Positions 597 through 8,856 of a DNA stretch of 64,000 nt are shown here, one piece after another. The position numbers were made by a program, and so were the translations under genes. The stretch is from Halobacterium sp. R2-5. Lineage in GTDB: Archaea; Halobacteriota; Halobacteria; Halobacteriales; Halobacteriaceae. The notes under the pieces were generated by a model, which saw nothing but the letters and a program-made list of their open reading frames with translations, was not told the DNA's origin and made no database searches. The stretch is taken from contig NZ_JAANTH010000002.1 of the NCBI RefSeq assembly GCF_011734195.1, positions 310,001-374,000 of the forward strand, given 5' to 3'. How positions within the stretch are numbered: position 1 is the stretch's first letter; every line of letters begins with the position of its first letter.

Positions 597-1586
597 TTAC
601 AGGCGGTCGATAATCGCGTCGCCGACCTGCTCGGTGGTGGCGTCGCCGCCGAGGTCGGGCGTCCGCGGGCCGTCCGCGAGCACGCCCTCGACGGCGTCGC
701 GGACGCGCTGGCCGTCCTCGTCGTAGCCGAGGAACTCCAGCAGCATCGCCGCCGACAGCACGGTCGCGCCGGGGTTCGCGACGCCCTGGCCGGCGATGTC
801 CGGCGCGGTGCCGTGGACCGGCTCGAACAGCCCGCGCTCGTGGCCGACGTTCGCGGACGGCAGCAGCCCGAGGCCGCCGACGAGGCCCGCGGCGAGGTCC
901 GAGAGCACGTCGCCCGCGAGGTTCGGGCAGACGACGACGTCGTACTCGTCCGGATAGAGGGGGAGCCGCGTCGCGAACGCGTCCATCAGCTCCTCGTCCG
1001 TGTCGACGCCCTGTTCGTCGGCGACCGAGAGCACGTCCTCGCGGAAGCGGCCGTCTGTCTCCCGCATCACGTTCGCCTTGTGGACGACCGTGAAGCCGTC
1101 CGTCCCGTCGGGGCCGCGGCCGTCCTCGACGAACTCGCAGGCGAACTCCGCGAGCTGTCGGGAGGCGGACGTGGTGACGACCCGGGTGAGCGTCGAGAGG
1201 TCGTCGCTCAGGCGGTCCTCGTGGCCCGAGTAGACGCCCTCCGTGTTCTCCCGGAGGAAGACGACGTCGGTCTCCGGGCGGAGCGCGTCCACGCCCGGGT
1301 ACGCGCGGGCGGGGCGGATGTTCACGAACGAGTCGACCGCCGAGCGCAGCGGCAGGATGACGTCCGCGGCGGTCTCGCCGGCGGCGCCGAACAGCGTCGC
1401 GTCCGCGGCTTCGACCGCCGCCCGCGTCTCCGCTGGCAGCGGCGTGCCGGTCTCCTCTTTCACCGCGTCGCCGGCGTCGGCGTGCACGAACTCGAAATCC
1501 CCGACCGCACCGAGGACGTCCACCGCGACGGGGACGACTTCCTGTCCGATGCCGTCGCCGGGGATGACCGCTATCTCCTCAGACAT
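597..1586 (-). CDS. leuB: 3-isopropylmalate dehydrogenase
   Basis: 329-residue member of the isocitrate/isopropylmalate dehydrogenase family. It starts [13 protein letters not shown], has the substrate-binding segment [12 protein letters not shown] and the Mg/NAD region [22 protein letters not shown] followed by [15 protein letters not shown]. It oxidises and decarboxylates 3-isopropylmalate to 4-methyl-2-oxopentanoate in leucine synthesis. It is the last gene of the minus-strand ilv-leu operon: its ATG overlaps the end of leuD by 8 nt, which suggests translational coupling. Genes of this family can also act on related beta-hydroxyacids (isocitrate, methylmalate), but the operon position right after leuCD supports leuB. 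Confidence 0.95.
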
Positions 1587-2193
1587 CCGTGTAGGGGAGA
1601 CTCTCGGCGGTTTCGCGCACGGTGTCGGCGTTCGCGCCCATCAGCGCGGTCGTGTCCCAGACGCCGTCGACGAGCGCGCGCCGCTGCGCGTCGTCGACCT
1701 CCGCGTCGATGACGGTGTCGCCGTACCGGACTTCCTCGTTCACGACGTCGACGTCGATCTCCTCGTCGGGGTGCTCGTCGATGTAGTCCTGCAGGGCTTC
1801 GACGTCCTCCTGCGAGGCGGTGACCGTGGGGATGCCGAGCGCGAGGCAGTTGCCCGCGAAAATCTCGGCGAACGACTCGCCGACGATGGCGTCGATTCCC
1901 CACCGCATCAGCGCCTGCGGCGCGTGCTCCCGGGAGGAGCCGCAGCCGAAGTTCGCGTTCACCGCGAGCACGGACGCCCCCTGGAAGTGGTCCTCGTTGA
2001 ACGGGTGGTCTTTGGGGTTGTCCTCGTCGTCGAAGCGCACGTCGAAGAACGAGAACTCCCCGAGGCCGTCGAACGTGACGACCTTCATGAACCGCGCGGG
2101 GATGATCTGGTCCGTGTCGATGTCGTTCCCGCGCACGGGGACGCCCGTGCCCGAGACGTGCTCGACGGTGTCCGCGGGACCGTCGTCGCTCAT
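1579..2193 (-). CDS. leuD: 3-isopropylmalate dehydratase small subunit
   Basis: 204 residues, the swivel-domain subunit of isopropylmalate isomerase. The family motif GCGSSREH is at residues 83-90 and the N-terminal [13 protein letters not shown] segment is typical. With LeuC it interconverts 2- and 3-isopropylmalate. The ATG at 2193 overlaps the leuC stop by 4 nt (ATGA), and the leuD end overlaps leuB by 8 nt, so the three leucine genes are almost certainly one translationally coupled unit. The length is slightly above the roughly 165-200 residues usual for the archaeal small subunit; the extra residues are an acidic N-terminal tail. Confidence 0.95.
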
Positions 2194-3614
2194 GCGCGCA
2201 CCTCCTCGAAGCGCTCCAGCTCACGGACGTCGGTGACCTCGCCGGTGATGGCGGCCGCAGCGACCATCGGCGGGCTCATCAGGACGGTGCGGCCGTCCTT
2301 CGAGCCCTGCCGGCCGACGAAGTTCCGGTTCGACGACGACGCGCAGCGCTCGTCGCCGACCAGCTGGTCCTCGTTCATGCCCAGACACATCGAACAGCCG
2401 GCGCCGCGCCACTCGAAGCCGGCCTCCTTGAACACCTCGTCGAGGCCCTCGGCCTCGGCGGCGGCCTTGACGCGCTGGCTGCCCGGCACGACCATCGCGC
2501 GCACGGAGTCGTGGACCTCGTGGCCCTTCACGACCTCCGCGGCCTCCCGGAGGTCCGGCAGGCGCGCGTTCGTACAGCTCCCGAGGAACGCCACGTCGAT
2601 GGGGTAGCCCGCCATCGTGTCGCCGGGCTCGACGCCCATGTGCTCCTGGGCGCTGCGCGCGGTGTCCTGCTTGTCCGCGGGCAGGTCCTCGGGCGCGGGA
2701 ATCTCCTCGGAGATGCCGATGCCCTGACCGGGCGTCGTCCCCCACGTCACCGTGGGTTCGAGCGCGTCGCCGTCGATCTCCACGACGTCGTCGTACTCGG
2801 CGTCCGCGTCGGACTTGATGGACTCCCAGTAGGACTTGAGCTCCTCGAACTCCTCGCCCTCGGGAATCTCGTCCCGCCCTTCGAGGTACTCGTAGGTCGT
2901 CTCGTCGGGGTTGACGTAGCCCGCGCGAGCGCCGCCCTCGATGGACATGTTACAGATGCTCATCCGGCCGGCCATGTCCATGGCCTCGACGGCCTCGCCG
3001 CCGTACTCGTAGACGTAGCCGACGCCGCCGTCGGTGCCGAGCTTCCGGATGACCTGCAGGATGACGTCCTTCGGCGTCACGCCCTCGTCGAGTTCGCCGG
3101 TGACCTCGATGCGCCGGACCTTCTGTTTCTCCATGGCGACACAGCCCGTCGCCAGCACGTCCCGAATCTGGGACGTGCCGATGCCGAACGCGAGCGCGCC
3201 GAACGCGCCGTGGGTCGCCGTGTGGGAGTCGCCGCAGACGATGGTCATCCCGGGCTGGGTGAGCCCCTGCTCCGGGCCGACCACGTGGACGATGCCCTGC
3301 CGGCCCGTCGTCGGGTCCGCGAAGTCGATGCCTGCGTCGCGGACGTTCTGCTCCAGCTCGCTCATCATCTCCTCGGCCGCGTCGTCGCTGTACGGCCGGG
3401 ACTGGTCGGCGGTCGGGACGATGTGGTCGACGGTCGCGTACGTGCGCTCGGGGTACGCGACGTCGAGGCCGCGCTCTTTCAGCATCCCGAACGCCTGCGG
3501 GCTCGTCACCTCGTGGATGAGGTGGAGGCCGACGAACAGCTGGGTCTGCCCGGTCGGCAGCTCCGTCACTTCGTGGCGGTCCCAGACCTTGTCGTAGAGC
3601 GTGTTCTCACTCAT
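2190..3614 (-). CDS. leuC: 3-isopropylmalate dehydratase large subunit
   Basis: 474-residue aconitase-family subunit that carries the [4Fe-4S] cluster. The three cluster cysteines are visible as [11 protein letters not shown] (Cys about 347) and [11 protein letters not shown] (Cys about 407 and 410). The N-terminal half contains [23 protein letters not shown], the typical substrate-domain signature. It works with LeuD encoded immediately downstream. Its start overlaps the preceding 82-residue ORF by 8 nt and its stop overlaps leuD by 4 nt, which marks it as an internal cistron of the operon. A homoaconitase or methylmalate role is conceivable but the setting favours leucine synthesis. Confidence 0.95.
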
Positions 3615-3855
3615 CGCGTCCGTCCTCGTCCGCTACGGGTTCGCCGCCGCGCTCCCATACGGGGTTCGCGCCCTCGTCGTCCTCGGTCGGCGGCGTCTGG
3701 TCGACGTCTTTCATCTTCTGCTCGCCCTTCTCGGGCTCCGCAGCACGCTCGCCTCCGTCGGCGGCCACAATCGGACCGCGTCGGAACACGTTGTTGACGC
3801 CGTCGGGCGCCGCGGGGTTGCGCTGGCTGACGTCCTTCAGCGTCTGCTCAGTCAT
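3607..3855 (-). CDS. small acidic protein of unknown function inside the ilv-leu operon
   Basis: 82 residues between ilvC and leuC, overlapping each by 8 nt in the same way as the neighbouring enzyme genes overlap each other, which is good evidence that it is translated. It has no membrane segment and no cysteine. It contains two imperfect copies of one short motif: [15 protein letters not shown] (about residues 21-35) and [16 protein letters not shown] (about 64-79), i.e. N-x-V-[F/W]-x-R-G followed by Ala-Asp and glycine. From memory, other haloarchaea also carry a short ORF at this operon position. I do not recognise a domain; it might be a small partner of KARI or isopropylmalate isomerase, but that is only guilt by association. 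Confidence 0.75.
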
Positions 3856-4897
3856 CCGCGGACACCTCCGCCTCCTGCTCCTGTTCTTCCTGCTCGTCGG
3901 CCCACGCGAACAGCTCCCGGAGGCGCTCGCCGACGTCCTCGATGTCGTGGTTCTGTTCGGCCGTGCGGCGCTGGCGGTACGACGGGCGGCCCGCCTGATT
4001 CTCCGCGATCCACTCGCGGGCGAACTCGCCGTTCTGGACCTCTTCGAGGACTTCCTCCATGTTCTCCCGGACGGACTCGTCGACGACCTCGTCGCCGCGG
4101 GTCAGCCCGCCGTACTCCGCGGTGTCGGAGACGGAGTCCCACATGCCGGCGTTCCCGCCCTCGTACATCAGGTCCACGATGAGCTTGAGCTCGTTGAGGA
4201 CCTCGAAGTACGCCATCTCCGGGCTGTACCCGGCGTCGACCAGCGTCTCGTAGCCGGTCTTCACGAGGCTCGTCACGCCGCCGCAGAGGACGGCCTGCTC
4301 GCCGAACAGGTCGGTCTCGGTCTCCTCGCGGAACGTCGTCTCCACGACGCCCGCGCGAGCGCAGCCGATGCCGTCGGCGTACGCCAGCGCCTCGTCGTGG
4401 GCGTCACCGGTGGCGTCCTGGTAGACCGCAAGCAGCGCGGGCGTCCCCTGGCCGGCCTCGTAGTTCCGGCGTACGAGGTGGCCGGGGGACTTCGGTGCGA
4501 TCATCGTCACGTCGACGTCTTCCGGCGGCTCGATCTGGCCGTAGTGGATGTTGAACCCGTGCGCGAACTGGAGCGTGTCGCCGGCGTCCAGTTCGGGACG
4601 GATGTCCTCGAACACCGACGGCTGGACGGTGTCCGGCACGAGCACGGAGACGACGTCCGCCTCGCGGGCGGCCTTCTTCGGAGAGGCCACGCGCAGGCCG
4701 TCGGCCTTCGCCGCCGACCGCGACGAGGAGTCCTCGCGCAGGCCGACGACCACGTCGACCCCGCTGTCGTCGAGGTTCTGCGCGTGGGCGTGGCCCTGGC
4801 TGCCGTACCCGAGTACGGCGACTGTCTTGTCGTCGATGTAGCGTCGGTCGACGTCCGATTCGTGGTACACTGGCTGCGTGAAGTCTGCGTCTGTCAT
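3848..4897 (-). CDS. ilvC: ketol-acid reductoisomerase
   Basis: 349 residues, class I (short) KARI length. The NADP-binding motif [13 protein letters not shown] is near residue 30, the catalytic His lies in AHGFNIHYG, and the acidic metal ligands are in [14 protein letters not shown] and in [17 protein letters not shown]. It converts 2-acetolactate and 2-aceto-2-hydroxybutyrate to the dihydroxy acids of valine and isoleucine synthesis. The last 20 residues form a Glu/Gln-rich acidic tail beyond the catalytic fold, typical halophilic decoration. The ATG overlaps the ilvN stop by 4 nt. Confidence 0.97.
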
Positions 4898-5523
4898 TTG
4901 AGGTGGTCTGGAACGACTGCTGTCTTGGTCTCGCCACGCGCCAGCGCCGTCTGTCCGGTTCGGGCGATCTCCCGGATACCGAACTGCCGGTAGGCGTCGA
5001 TGGCGTCGTTGATCTTCTGCTCGTCGCCGGTCAGCTCGACCGTGATGGTCCGCGGGCCGGCGTCGAGGGTCTTCCCGTTGTACATCTCCGTGATGGCGTG
5101 GACCTCGTGGGGGCGGTCGGCGTCGACTTTCACCACCACGAGCTCCCGCGTCACCGCGTCGTCCGCGAGCTCGCGGACGTGGATGACCGGGACGACCTTC
5201 TCTAGCTGCTTCTCGACCTGGTCGATACCGGGGTCGGGCTCCTCGACGACGACCGTGATGCGCGCCCAGTCGTCGTTCTGGGTGTCCGCGACGGTCAGCG
5301 ACTCGATGTTGAACTGCCGCCGGCTGAACAGCCCGGAGACGCGCGCGAGCACGCCCGGCTCGTGTTCGACGAGCGCGGAGATGACGGTGCGCCGCGGCGG
5401 GTGCTCGGCCTCGACTTCGGGGTCGACGCGGATGCCCTGCGAGGTCCGGCGGCCCTTCGGCCGCCGACGGTCCTCCGGGGCGGGCCCCGGCAGTCCCTCT
5501 CGTTCGGTGTCTCGCTCGCTCAT
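4894..5523 (-). CDS. ilvN: acetolactate synthase regulatory (small) subunit
   Basis: 209 residues from the ATG at 5523, chosen because it overlaps the ilvB stop by 4 nt and gives the expected length; the longer upstream reading frame is antisense-like sequence inside ilvB. An ACT domain starts near residue 45 ([29 protein letters not shown]), followed by the small-subunit C-terminal domain ([21 protein letters not shown]). It binds the end product valine and stabilises and feedback-regulates IlvB. The first 40 residues are a charged, probably disordered extension not needed for the ACT fold. Confidence 0.95.
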
Positions 5524-7310
5524 AGGTGGTCCTCCGAGAGCGCGAACTGGCCGTTGTCGCCGCCCGAGGGAACCATCGGGTAGACGTCCTCGGTCGGGTC
5601 GATGTAGACGTCGACCACGGCGGGTCCGTCGACGGCGAGCGCTTCCTCGATGACGTCGGGCGCGTCGTCGTAGCCCTCGATGCGGAAGCCGTCCGCGCCG
5701 AACGCCTCCGCGAGCGTGTCGAACTTCGGCACCCACGGGTACTCCGAGGCCATCCGGCGGCCGTCGAAGAACGCGTCCTGCCACTGCCGGACCATCCCGA
5801 TGGCCTCGTTGTTCAGCACGAAGACGGTGATGTCCATCTGCTCGCGCACCGCGACGACGAGCTCCTGACACGTCATCAGGAACGAACCGTCGCCGTCGAA
5901 GCTGACGACGGACTGGTCGTCGTCGGCGGCGACGCGCGCGCCGATGGCCGACGGCAGCCCGTACCCCATCGCGCCGAGGCCGTGGGAGGACACCCACGTC
6001 CGCGGCTCGGTGTACGTCCAGAACTGGCAGGCCCACATCTGGTGCTGCCCGACGCCGGTCGTGACGACCGTGTCGCGGTCGGTCGCCTCGTCGACGGCCT
6101 CCACGACGTACTGGGGTTTCAGCGGCTCGTCCTCGGGGGCCGCGTAGTCGAGGCGGTACTCCTCTTTCCACTCGCGGCACTGCTCGACCCACGCCTCCGT
6201 GTCCGGCGAGGTCGGCATCGCCTCGTCGAGCTGGTCGAGGACGGTGCCCGCGTCGCCGACGAGCGGGTGGTCGGCCTCGATGTTCTTCGAGATCTCCGCG
6301 GGGTCGATGTCGACGTGGATAACCTCGGCGTCCGGCGCGAACGAGTCGACGCCGCCGGTCAGGCGGTCGTCGAAGCGCGTGCCGACCGCCAGCAGGCAGT
6401 CGGTCAGCGTGATGGCCATGTTCGCGTAGCCGGTGCCGTGCATCCCCGCCATCTCGAGGGCGAGGTCGTGGTCCTCGGGGAACGCGCCGATGCCCGGCAT
6501 CGTCGTCACGACCGGAATCTCGTGCTCGGTCGCGAACGCGTACAGCTCCTCGGTCGCGTCGCCCTTCACGACGCCGCCGCCCGCCAGAATCACGGGCTCG
6601 TCGGCGTCGACGATGGTCTGCGCGGCGGCCGCGACGTTCTCGTCGTCCGCGCGCGTCTGCACGTCGACGGTGCCCGGGACTTCGGGCTCGACGGGGTCGA
6701 CGTCGGTCTCGCCGGTCGTGACGTCCTTCGGCAGGTCGACGACCGTCGGCCCCTGTCGGCCGTGGCTCGCGAGCGCGAACGCCGTGCTCACGTCCTCACC
6801 GACCGTGTCGGGGCTGGACGCGAAGTAGTTCGACTTCGTGATGGGCGTCGTCACGCCGACCGTGTCCGTCTCCTGGAACGCGTCGTTGCCGACCAGCTCC
6901 GTGGGGACCTGGCCGGTGAGCGCGACGACGGGCTCGGAGTCCATGTCGGCGTCCGCGAGCCCGGTCACGAGGTTCGTCGCGCCCGGGCCGGACGTCGCCA
7001 TGCAGACGCCGGGGTCGCCGCTGACCGCGCCGTACGCGTCCGCGGCGTGCGCGGCGCCCTGCTCGTGCGCCATCGTCACGTGGTCGAGACCGGAGTCGTA
7101 CAGCGCGTCGTAGACGGGCATGATGGCGCCGCCCTGCACGCCGAACACCGTCTCGACGCCGGCGGCCTCCAGGGACGCGACGACGGACTCCGCGCCCGTT
7201 CGCTTCGCGACTTCGGCCTCCTCGGCGTCGACTCCCTCGGCTTCGGTCGCCTCGCTTTCGGCCTCCGGCTCGGCCTCGTCCGGTTCCGTGACTGCGCCGT
7301 GTTCTGTCAT
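5520..7310 (-). CDS. ilvB: acetolactate synthase catalytic subunit
   Basis: 596-residue thiamine-diphosphate enzyme. The catalytic Glu is in [16 protein letters not shown], and the ThDP/Mg motif runs from [11 protein letters not shown] to VLNNEAIGM. It condenses two pyruvates (or pyruvate and 2-oxobutyrate). The first 35 residues are an acidic, Glu/Ala-rich extension before the [22 protein letters not shown] start of the PYR domain. The ATG at 7310 is preceded by GAGGGG (minus strand, 7316-7321) at a 5-nt spacing, a good ribosome binding site. It is the first enzyme cistron after the leader-peptide region at 7416-7529, so expression is probably controlled there separately from leuA. Confidence 0.97.
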
Positions 7311-7415
7311 CGATACCCCTCGCGCGGTGTCGGGTCGGTTCGTGTGGACTGTGTCATTGCGGATGCTGCGGTGGCTGTCGGTCGTGGGTGATTCCGGACT
7401 GGGGGAGAAGTGGTA

Positions 7416-7437
7416 GTAGGGGAGCTTACGCCCCTAC
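7416..7437 (-). promoter_or_regulatory. hairpin overlapping the leader-peptide stop codon
   Basis: Perfect inverted repeat: 7-bp arms (GTAGGGG and CCCCTAC) separated by an 8-nt loop that contains the leader's TAA stop. A ribosome that finishes the leader would occupy the 5' arm, while one stalled at the Ile/Val codons just upstream would sit differently, so hairpin formation could report charged tRNA levels. No U-tract follows on the minus strand, so it is not a typical intrinsic terminator. Its CCCCT arm has five bases complementary to the ilvB ribosome binding site AGGGG, a weak hint of translational control. Confidence 0.55.
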
Positions 7438-7497
7438 AATACCGACAATCGCACCGCTGCCCGCGAGAAGACCCGTGTGCGCGGCCTGCGGCAACAT
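7426..7497 (-). CDS. putative Ile/Val-rich leader peptide of the ilvBNC-leuCDB operon
   Basis: A 23-codon ORF, too short for normal ORF calling, begins at ATG 7497 and ends at TAA 7426-7428. The peptide starts MLPQAAHTGLLAG and ends SGAIVGIVGA: codons ATT GTC GGT ATT GTA lie just before the stop, so four of the last seven residues are Ile or Val. A TATA-like element is centred 27 nt upstream of the ATG, which would make this the first codon of a leaderless mRNA. A perfect 7-bp hairpin covers the last codons and the stop. ilvB follows about 115 nt after the stop. The arrangement resembles bacterial ilv leader peptides; that the peptide is translated and regulatory is inference. Confidence 0.6.
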   Translation of the reverse strand: MLPQAAHTGLLAGSGAIVGIVGA

Positions 7498-7520
7498 CGT
7501 GCTCCGATAAGCGGCCTCGG

Positions 7521-7529
7521 TAGATAAAG
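7521..7529 (-). promoter_or_regulatory. TATA box of the leader/ilvB promoter
   Basis: Minus-strand CTTTATCTA sits between the leuA stop and the leader ATG. Its centre is about 27 nt upstream of ATG 7497, the spacing normal for archaeal TATA boxes and transcription starts, which predicts a leaderless transcript beginning at or next to that ATG. It implies that ilvB and the genes behind it can be transcribed independently of leuA. Confidence 0.5.
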
Positions 7530-7563
7530 CCGTTGCTGGGAGCGCAATGCTTGCCGGCCGGCA

Positions 7564-8763
<1,200 letters not shown>

Positions 8764-8810
8764 CGGGCGCCTCGTTGTGAGACATCGTACCAGTCTCGCC
8801 GGGCTCCGGG

Positions 8811-8818
8811 TATTTACG
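8811..8818 (-). promoter_or_regulatory. TATA box upstream of leuA
   Basis: Minus-strand GTAAATA lies 25 nt before ATG 8785 and about 50 nt before the GTG 8763 start of leuA. The expected transcription start is therefore at or near 8785-8790, giving either a leaderless 23-codon upstream ORF (8785 to 8714, overlapping the leuA start out of frame) or a short leader containing the GAGG ribosome binding site. Confidence 0.45.
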
Positions 8819-8856
8819 TGTTTCCCCTTGACAGACGAGCGCACCTCCCGAATCTA

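Follow-up and report, generated by a model that had tools for sequence, protein, structure and literature searches.

The short open reading frame between leuA and ilvB of Halobacterium sp. R2-5, here called ORF1, appears to encode the leader peptide through which a ribosome-mediated attenuator controls the ilvB-ilvN-ilvC-leuCDB operon of haloarchaea; we assign this reading a probability of roughly 0.6. The attenuator is predicted to sense charged tRNA-Ile and tRNA-Val, and its output is probably transcription termination. Comparison across the class establishes, at the level of sequence, the conservation of ORF1 and its frame, the promoter spacing, the codon choice, a hairpin (P2), the tract behind it and a second ORF (ORF2) with its amino acid composition. 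The features are listed in Table 1, where positions refer to the window, i.e., the whole 64,000-nt stretch of DNA that was analysed.

Table 1. Features of the leuA-ilvB region and of the downstream operon in the window.
Feature	Position	Strand	Remarks
leuA-type gene (2-isopropylmalate/citramalate synthase)	7564..8844	-	Stop 7566-7564; upstream of the leader; exact start uncertain
Leader-transcript promoter (putative)	7523..7537	-	BRE-like AGCAA 7537-7533; TATA-like TTTATC 7528-7523
ORF1, leader peptide	7426..7497	-	MLPQAAHTGLLAGSGAIVGIVGA, 23 codons; ATG 7497-7495, TAA 7428-7426
Outer helix, 5' arm	7442..7456	-	Pairs with 7381-7368; Halobacterium, not class-wide
Control codons ATT GTA (Ile-Val)	7435..7440	-	Both rare in these genomes
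Hairpin P2	7416..7437	-	GTAGGGG 7437-7431 / CCCCTAC 7422-7416; stop codon in loop
Pyrimidine-rich tract	7403..7418	-	TACTACCACTTCTCCC, no G; after P2; candidate termination or cleavage site
Outer helix, 3' arm	7368..7381	-	Just upstream of ORF2; Halobacterium
ORF2	7307..7357	-	16 residues, no Ile, Val or Leu; stop overlaps ilvB start (ATGA)
ilvB, acetolactate synthase large subunit	5520..7310	-	ATG 7310-7308; first operon gene; class-wide matches
ilvN	5523-4894	-	ORF and gene order
ilvC	4897-3848	-	ORF and gene order
leuC	3614-2190	-	ORF and gene order
leuD	2193-1579	-	ORF and gene order
leuB	1586-597	-	ORF and gene order

The ORFs of the window downstream of the leader give the order ilvB-ilvN-ilvC-leuC-leuD-leuB, the genes behind ilvB spanning 597..5523 on the minus strand; the names ilvN, ilvC, leuC, leuD and leuB are those we take to apply from knowledge of the families. 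All 145 genomes sampled from the class contained ilvB, and the leuA-ilvB synteny is general. Insertions in ilvB1 and ilvC cause auxotrophy for Val, Leu and Ile (PMC4300041), which we count as a match at the level of the pathway.

Conservation of ORF1, its promoter and its frame

Re-examination of the window confirmed the initial annotation as to coordinates, codons, hairpin and TATA-like box. The codons preceding the ORF1 stop are ATT GTC GGT ATT GTA GGG GCG, TTTATC begins 31 nt upstream of the ORF1 ATG, and AA at 7534-7533 corresponds to the BRE. We compared 158 non-redundant haloarchaeal gaps upstream of ilvB from about 50 genera, with the leader found in nine families. The short ORF ending in Ile/Val codons that the initial annotation had proposed to look for in relatives is conserved across the class: in 154 of the 158 gaps an ORF ends with Ile-Val-Gly-Ala/Val in frame and near its stop codon. 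These gaps are not independent events because the species are related. A motif score of at least 10 was reached by 150/154 real gaps and by 16/3080 Markov-resampled gaps. The element persists while the surrounding body of the leader changes. Two loci outside the 154 (L100 and L101) keep ATT and GTA with CGC inserted between them and have the stem rebuilt as GGGCC/GGCCC; in two other gaps (L120 and L150) the leader element is absent.

When the best TATA box was picked regardless of frame, the first ATG past it shared the frame of the control codons, and that frame was open, at 141 of 146 loci, one third being expected. This conservation of frame suggests that ORF1 is translated. The TATA box at a constant distance, also proposed earlier as a check, was found as well, its start lying 32 nt before the ATG at 112 of the 141 in-frame loci; the class-wide profile has AA at -37/-36 (BRE) and TTAT at -32..-29. 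With BRE and TATA elements at a constant distance from the start codon, the leader mRNA is presumably leaderless. In H. volcanii, the majority of messages are leaderless, with 0-5 nt before the start codon (PMC4983044).

In 26 genomes of the family, motif matches were nearly confined to ilvB and a reversed control gave zero matches, while 20 Halobacteriota genomes of other classes contained no ilvB leader motif. An AT-rich conserved ATGAANAATAATGATAAACTATTAATA before ilvB in three genomes of a non-haloarchaeal family (L217-L219, family f18) looked at first sight like a Leu/Ile leader; it is more simply, and probably, a promoter. Second copies of ilvB away from leuA (L126, L138 and L143) have leaders of their own, with altered control codons (II, FV and II) and the ends SIIGASY, PVFVGAA and LAIIGAPQ.

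Control codons

The Val codon of the leader is GTA in 152/154 cases, whereas GTA makes up 0.4% of 4974 Val codons in the neighbouring ilvB genes. ATT makes up 73% of the control Ile codons of the leaders against a background of 6.4% (background usage was drawn from ilvB genes and seven genes of the window). The control residues are IV in 148 of the 154 leaders, II in 2, VV in 2, LV in 1 and FV in 1. Fifty leaders retain GTA even though no T of P2 pairs with its A, so the conservation of this codon goes beyond what base pairing alone would require. The leader thus carries codons for the end-product amino acids at the critical position, as an attenuator would. There are only two or three of them, fewer than in most bacterial ilv leaders, and we count this against attenuation.

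The hairpin at the stop codon and the tract behind it

In the window, P2 is a perfect 7-bp hairpin lengthened by GGTA/TACC. The corresponding 46-nt stretch has a folding energy of -16.4 kcal/mol (z -3.4), and none of 200 shuffles was as stable. The full 226-nt leader region and an 81-nt stretch were unremarkable in folding, and P2 alone stands out. The same is seen across the class: over the stretch that begins with the Ile codon and ends shortly after the P2 3' arm, the mean folding z is -3.0 (below -2 in 88%), and both an upstream control and the tail after P2 are near zero (tail mean z 0.2). CCCC follows GGGG in 153/154 leaders and CCC in one, usually at a separation of 8 nt (110/154). In 145/154 leaders the stop codon lies within the P2 loop or has one base in common with the 3' arm; in the nine where it has moved behind the 3' arm (L015, L016 and L018 among them) the stem is still present. 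The 5' arm begins at or directly after the Val codon, so a ribosome on the control codons would exclude the hairpin.

The initial annotation had looked to compensatory changes as support for the hairpin. The hairpin is indeed kept, but its core GGGG/CCCC pairs hardly vary and are too invariant for a covariation test; covariation support for P2 is thin for this reason, and we count that against our reading. Compensatory changes were instead found in a second hairpin, located inside ORF1 and covarying in Haloarculaceae, where five standard pair types occur at one pair and four at another, and 13 compensated cells were counted versus 3.7 in shuffles; support in Natrialbaceae is weaker.

A U-run after P2 was not found, TTTT occurring within 90 nt in only 47/154 leaders. 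The first 16 nt after P2 are free of G in 80/154 cases versus 2 of 462 sequence windows taken further on, and T/C motifs are enriched over shuffles (TTC, 101 versus 51; TTYTC, 48 versus 6). The GC-rich stem of a bacterial intrinsic terminator is present, with a G-free T/C tract in place of the U-run. Haloarchaeal termini differ from the bacterial definition of stem plus U-run: at intergenic termini of H. volcanii a T stretch plus TC is seen, and hairpins lie at most 10 nt upstream of 503 termini (PMC7237163). The G-poor T/C tract of the leaders resembles these haloarchaeal termination motifs. A conserved CGCACCGTTTTC-like block was also seen ca. 40-50 nt past the leader stop in Natrialbaceae (L015-L083) and at L119, L157 and L161; it is possibly a second terminator element. 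An Rfam search with the leader returned no relevant match at E up to 10.

ORF2 and pairing with the ilvB start

Across the class, the TGA of ORF2 overlaps the ilvB ATG, and the length of ORF2 is mostly 9-30 codons. It is open and begins with ATG at 118 of 141 loci (84%), versus 15% of dinucleotide shuffles; in the other frame, an open ATG was found in 9%. Ile, Val and Leu together make up 1.9% of its residues, versus 8.1 and 11.1% in the other two frames of the same sequence, and 82 of 112 unique ORF2s have none at all. The corresponding values are 24.7% for ORF1, 4.7% for ilvB codons 2-21 and 20.6% for ilvB codons 101-120. The ORF2-ilvB pair has an SD-like stretch in 101/112. Gene pairs with ATGA overlaps are strictly coupled in H. 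volcanii (PMC6728339). ORF2 may be a relay that can be translated while branched-chain amino acids are missing.

Pairing of the leader with the region of the ORF2 and ilvB starts was considered as well. In Halobacterium, an outer helix joins the codons just 5' of ATT-GTA to the stretch before ORF2, and the initial annotation had suggested that AGGGG near the ilvB start could pair weakly with the CCCCT arm of P2. Such pairing is not general, for the 3' region has no class-wide excess of pairing with the leader (mean z of -0.1 for the outer and 0.1 for the anti duplex). As a general mechanism, base pairing between the ilvB/ORF2 start and either the leader or the 3' arm of P2 was rejected, a signal being seen in Halobacterium only. 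Likewise, no mutually exclusive antiterminator or alternative helix was detected class-wide, the outer helix being lineage-specific, and this too is counted against attenuation.

Proposed mechanism

The following sequence of events would account for these features. The promoter would give rise to a leaderless mRNA starting at or next to the ORF1 ATG, and ribosomes following RNA polymerase would translate ORF1. With ample Ile-tRNA and Val-tRNA, a ribosome would pass the rare ATT-GTA pair, end at the stop codon and depart. P2 could then form and, together with the G-free T/C tract, would halt RNA polymerase or make the transcript accessible to the archaeal termination factor (FttA/aCPSF1). In a shortage of Ile- or Val-tRNA, a ribosome stuck on ATT or GTA would mask the 5' arm of P2; with P2 blocked, transcription would proceed through ORF2 and ilvB. 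ORF2, nearly devoid of branched-chain residues, could still be translated during the shortage and would pass ribosomes to ilvB via the ATGA overlap. From the conserved arrangement we infer that ribosomes stall, that transcription terminates and through which factor, that ORF2 and ilvB are coupled at this site, and that the leader controls the operon. Two observations lead us to favour control of transcription termination as the output: the likeness of the conserved tract behind P2 to termination motifs, and the absence of class-wide pairing with ORF2 or the ilvB start.

A parallel leader at pheS

Amino acid attenuation has an example at Phe-tRNA synthetase genes, the pheM-pheST attenuator of E. 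coli, with a Phe-run leader before these genes. A list of upstream ORFs of H. volcanii contains a 26-aa ORF before pheS (HVO_2948) (PMC4983044, Table 2), which prompted us to examine pheS. In 23 of 30 haloarchaea, an ORF upstream of pheS has at least three Phe among its last nine codons, typically ending GFGFFFA(R); it is placed 28-31 nt behind a TATA-like box and 38-194 nt before pheS. Stems around the stop of the Phe leader change together (GCCCGG/CCGGGC, ACCC/GGGT, ACGC/GCGT, GACC/GGTC). These stems do not exceed shuffled versions of their own short stretch in stability (mean z -0.5), so that support for the pheS hairpin is comparative only. There is no obvious T tract after the hairpin; for this reason the output step at pheS may differ, which we count against our reading. 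At L285-L311, for instance L311:742-831 (G000:C1, about 110 nt before pheS), the leader ends PGFGFFFA with its stop inside a hairpin, in the design of the ilvB leader, and conserved GAAACCG and GGAACCGCTAACTGAC blocks lie between the leader and pheS.

The same kind of scan found no leaders at trpC, hisG, trpS or pheA. At the trpC promoter (L238, L228 and L234), a conserved CTTATGTACA..TGTACAATG-like dyad was seen instead of a leader peptide, and is an operator candidate.

Alternative explanations

The same sensor might act on a different output, with a ribosome stalled on Ile-Val controlling translation or mRNA decay rather than transcription: P2 or a longer fold would hinder entry at ORF2, and stalling would open ORF2, which feeds ilvB via ATGA. 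The ATGA overlap and branched-chain-free composition make ORF2 look like a translational device, no U-run follows P2, and the outer helix of Halobacterium would be opened by a stalled ribosome; given that helix, translational control is possible, particularly in Halobacterium. However, neither an excess of leader-ORF2 pairing nor structure past P2 is seen class-wide, both being at the level of shuffles, and we consider this output rather unlikely. A different sensor is conceivable too. TnaC is an arrest peptide responding to tryptophan, and a nascent IVGA chain might similarly respond, within the ribosome tunnel, to free branched-chain amino acid instead of tRNA charging, as the nearly invariant end of IVG plus Ala or Val would allow. 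Yet an arrest peptide has no need of a fixed synonymous choice, and GTA is kept although GTC, GTG and GTT specify the same residue. R, I, G, V, A, P, F, S or E may precede the motif, the control residues interchange among branched-chain amino acids and the leader body is highly variable, unlike what a TnaC-type peptide would show, which makes arrest improbable.

Two further readings dispense with attenuation altogether. The inverted repeat GTAGGGGC..GCCCC(TAC) is partly palindromic and occurs in a single copy at ilvB, as would an operator that lies behind the start site and binds a repressor, with the ORF incidental. An incidental ORF would not keep its frame at nearly every locus, however; the spacer that holds the stop codon is variable (mostly 5-9 nt), symmetry is often lost beyond GGGGC, and an analogous element coded for Phe exists at pheS, so that an operator is very improbable. 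ORF1 might also be a small trans-acting protein with its own terminator and no cis effect on ilvB, as its conservation and its own promoter would permit, but the last four residues alone are kept while the body changes, codon identity is kept, and ORF1 is tied to ilvB, including the second copies at L126, L138 and L143. We give this last reading hardly any credence. Attenuation by ribosomes stalled on the control codons remains our preferred explanation.

Relation to known systems and implications

Regulation of amino acid operons by attenuation through leader peptides is textbook bacterial biology, and ivbL-ilvBN and ilvGMEDA of E. coli are its ilv examples. The uORF of Corynebacterium ilvBNC is another bacterial ilv leader-peptide attenuator (PMC10272879, PMC11857589). 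Like these, the haloarchaeal leader has a short ORF coded for the product amino acids upstream of ilvB, an overlapping hairpin and then a putative termination region. Unlike them, it is archaeal and lies on an mRNA predicted to be leaderless; it has, instead of long runs, one or two Ile-Val pairs whose very rare codons would make them slow, a G-free T/C tract instead of a U-run, no detectable antiterminator, and a second, branched-chain-free ORF presumably coupled to ilvB. The ilvB leader would work like a bacterial attenuator, yet two defining bacterial features, the U-run and the antiterminator, are missing, so we do not place it in a described family, and we do not claim common descent with the bacterial systems. 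The pheS leader shares with pheM-pheST a Phe run before the synthetase gene; it differs in the peptide end, GFGFFFA or GFGFFFAR, in having the stop within the hairpin and in that no U-run was seen.

Both leaders resemble the uORFs in long 5'-UTRs of H. volcanii, which are short ORFs in transcribed leaders and include the one at pheS; that paper contains neither "attenuation" nor "leader peptide", and ilvB is not on its list (PMC4983044). ORF2-ilvB has the same overlap as ATGA pairs with termination-reinitiation, usually with an SD-like stretch, but ORF2 is a very short upstream partner that avoids Ile, Val and Leu (PMC6728339). We found no earlier report of archaeal leader-peptide attenuation in the open-licence literature, and it goes unmentioned in a review of archaeal translation initiation and in a review of H. 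volcanii biology. Beyond the initial annotation, the analysis adds ORF2 with its near-absence of Ile, Val and Leu, the finding that GTA is extremely rare, the parallel at pheS and the covarying hairpin in Haloarculaceae.

We see an even chance that the translation-coupled attenuators of haloarchaea form a class of their own, with members at least at ilvB and pheS. These would combine a leader ORF on a leaderless mRNA, control codons that are rare or repeated, a stop inside a hairpin and factor-dependent termination that dispenses with U-run and antiterminator; at ilvB, ribosomes would be kept entering the operon in starvation by a relay ORF from which the sensed amino acids have been purged. 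Such a relay is a design feature of which we know no description. If true, a class of this kind implies close coupling of transcription and translation in these archaea. The leader, carried by many genera that can be cultured, would then offer a natural single-locus assay for the functional coupling of archaeal ribosomes and RNA polymerase, and for how archaeal termination senses translation.
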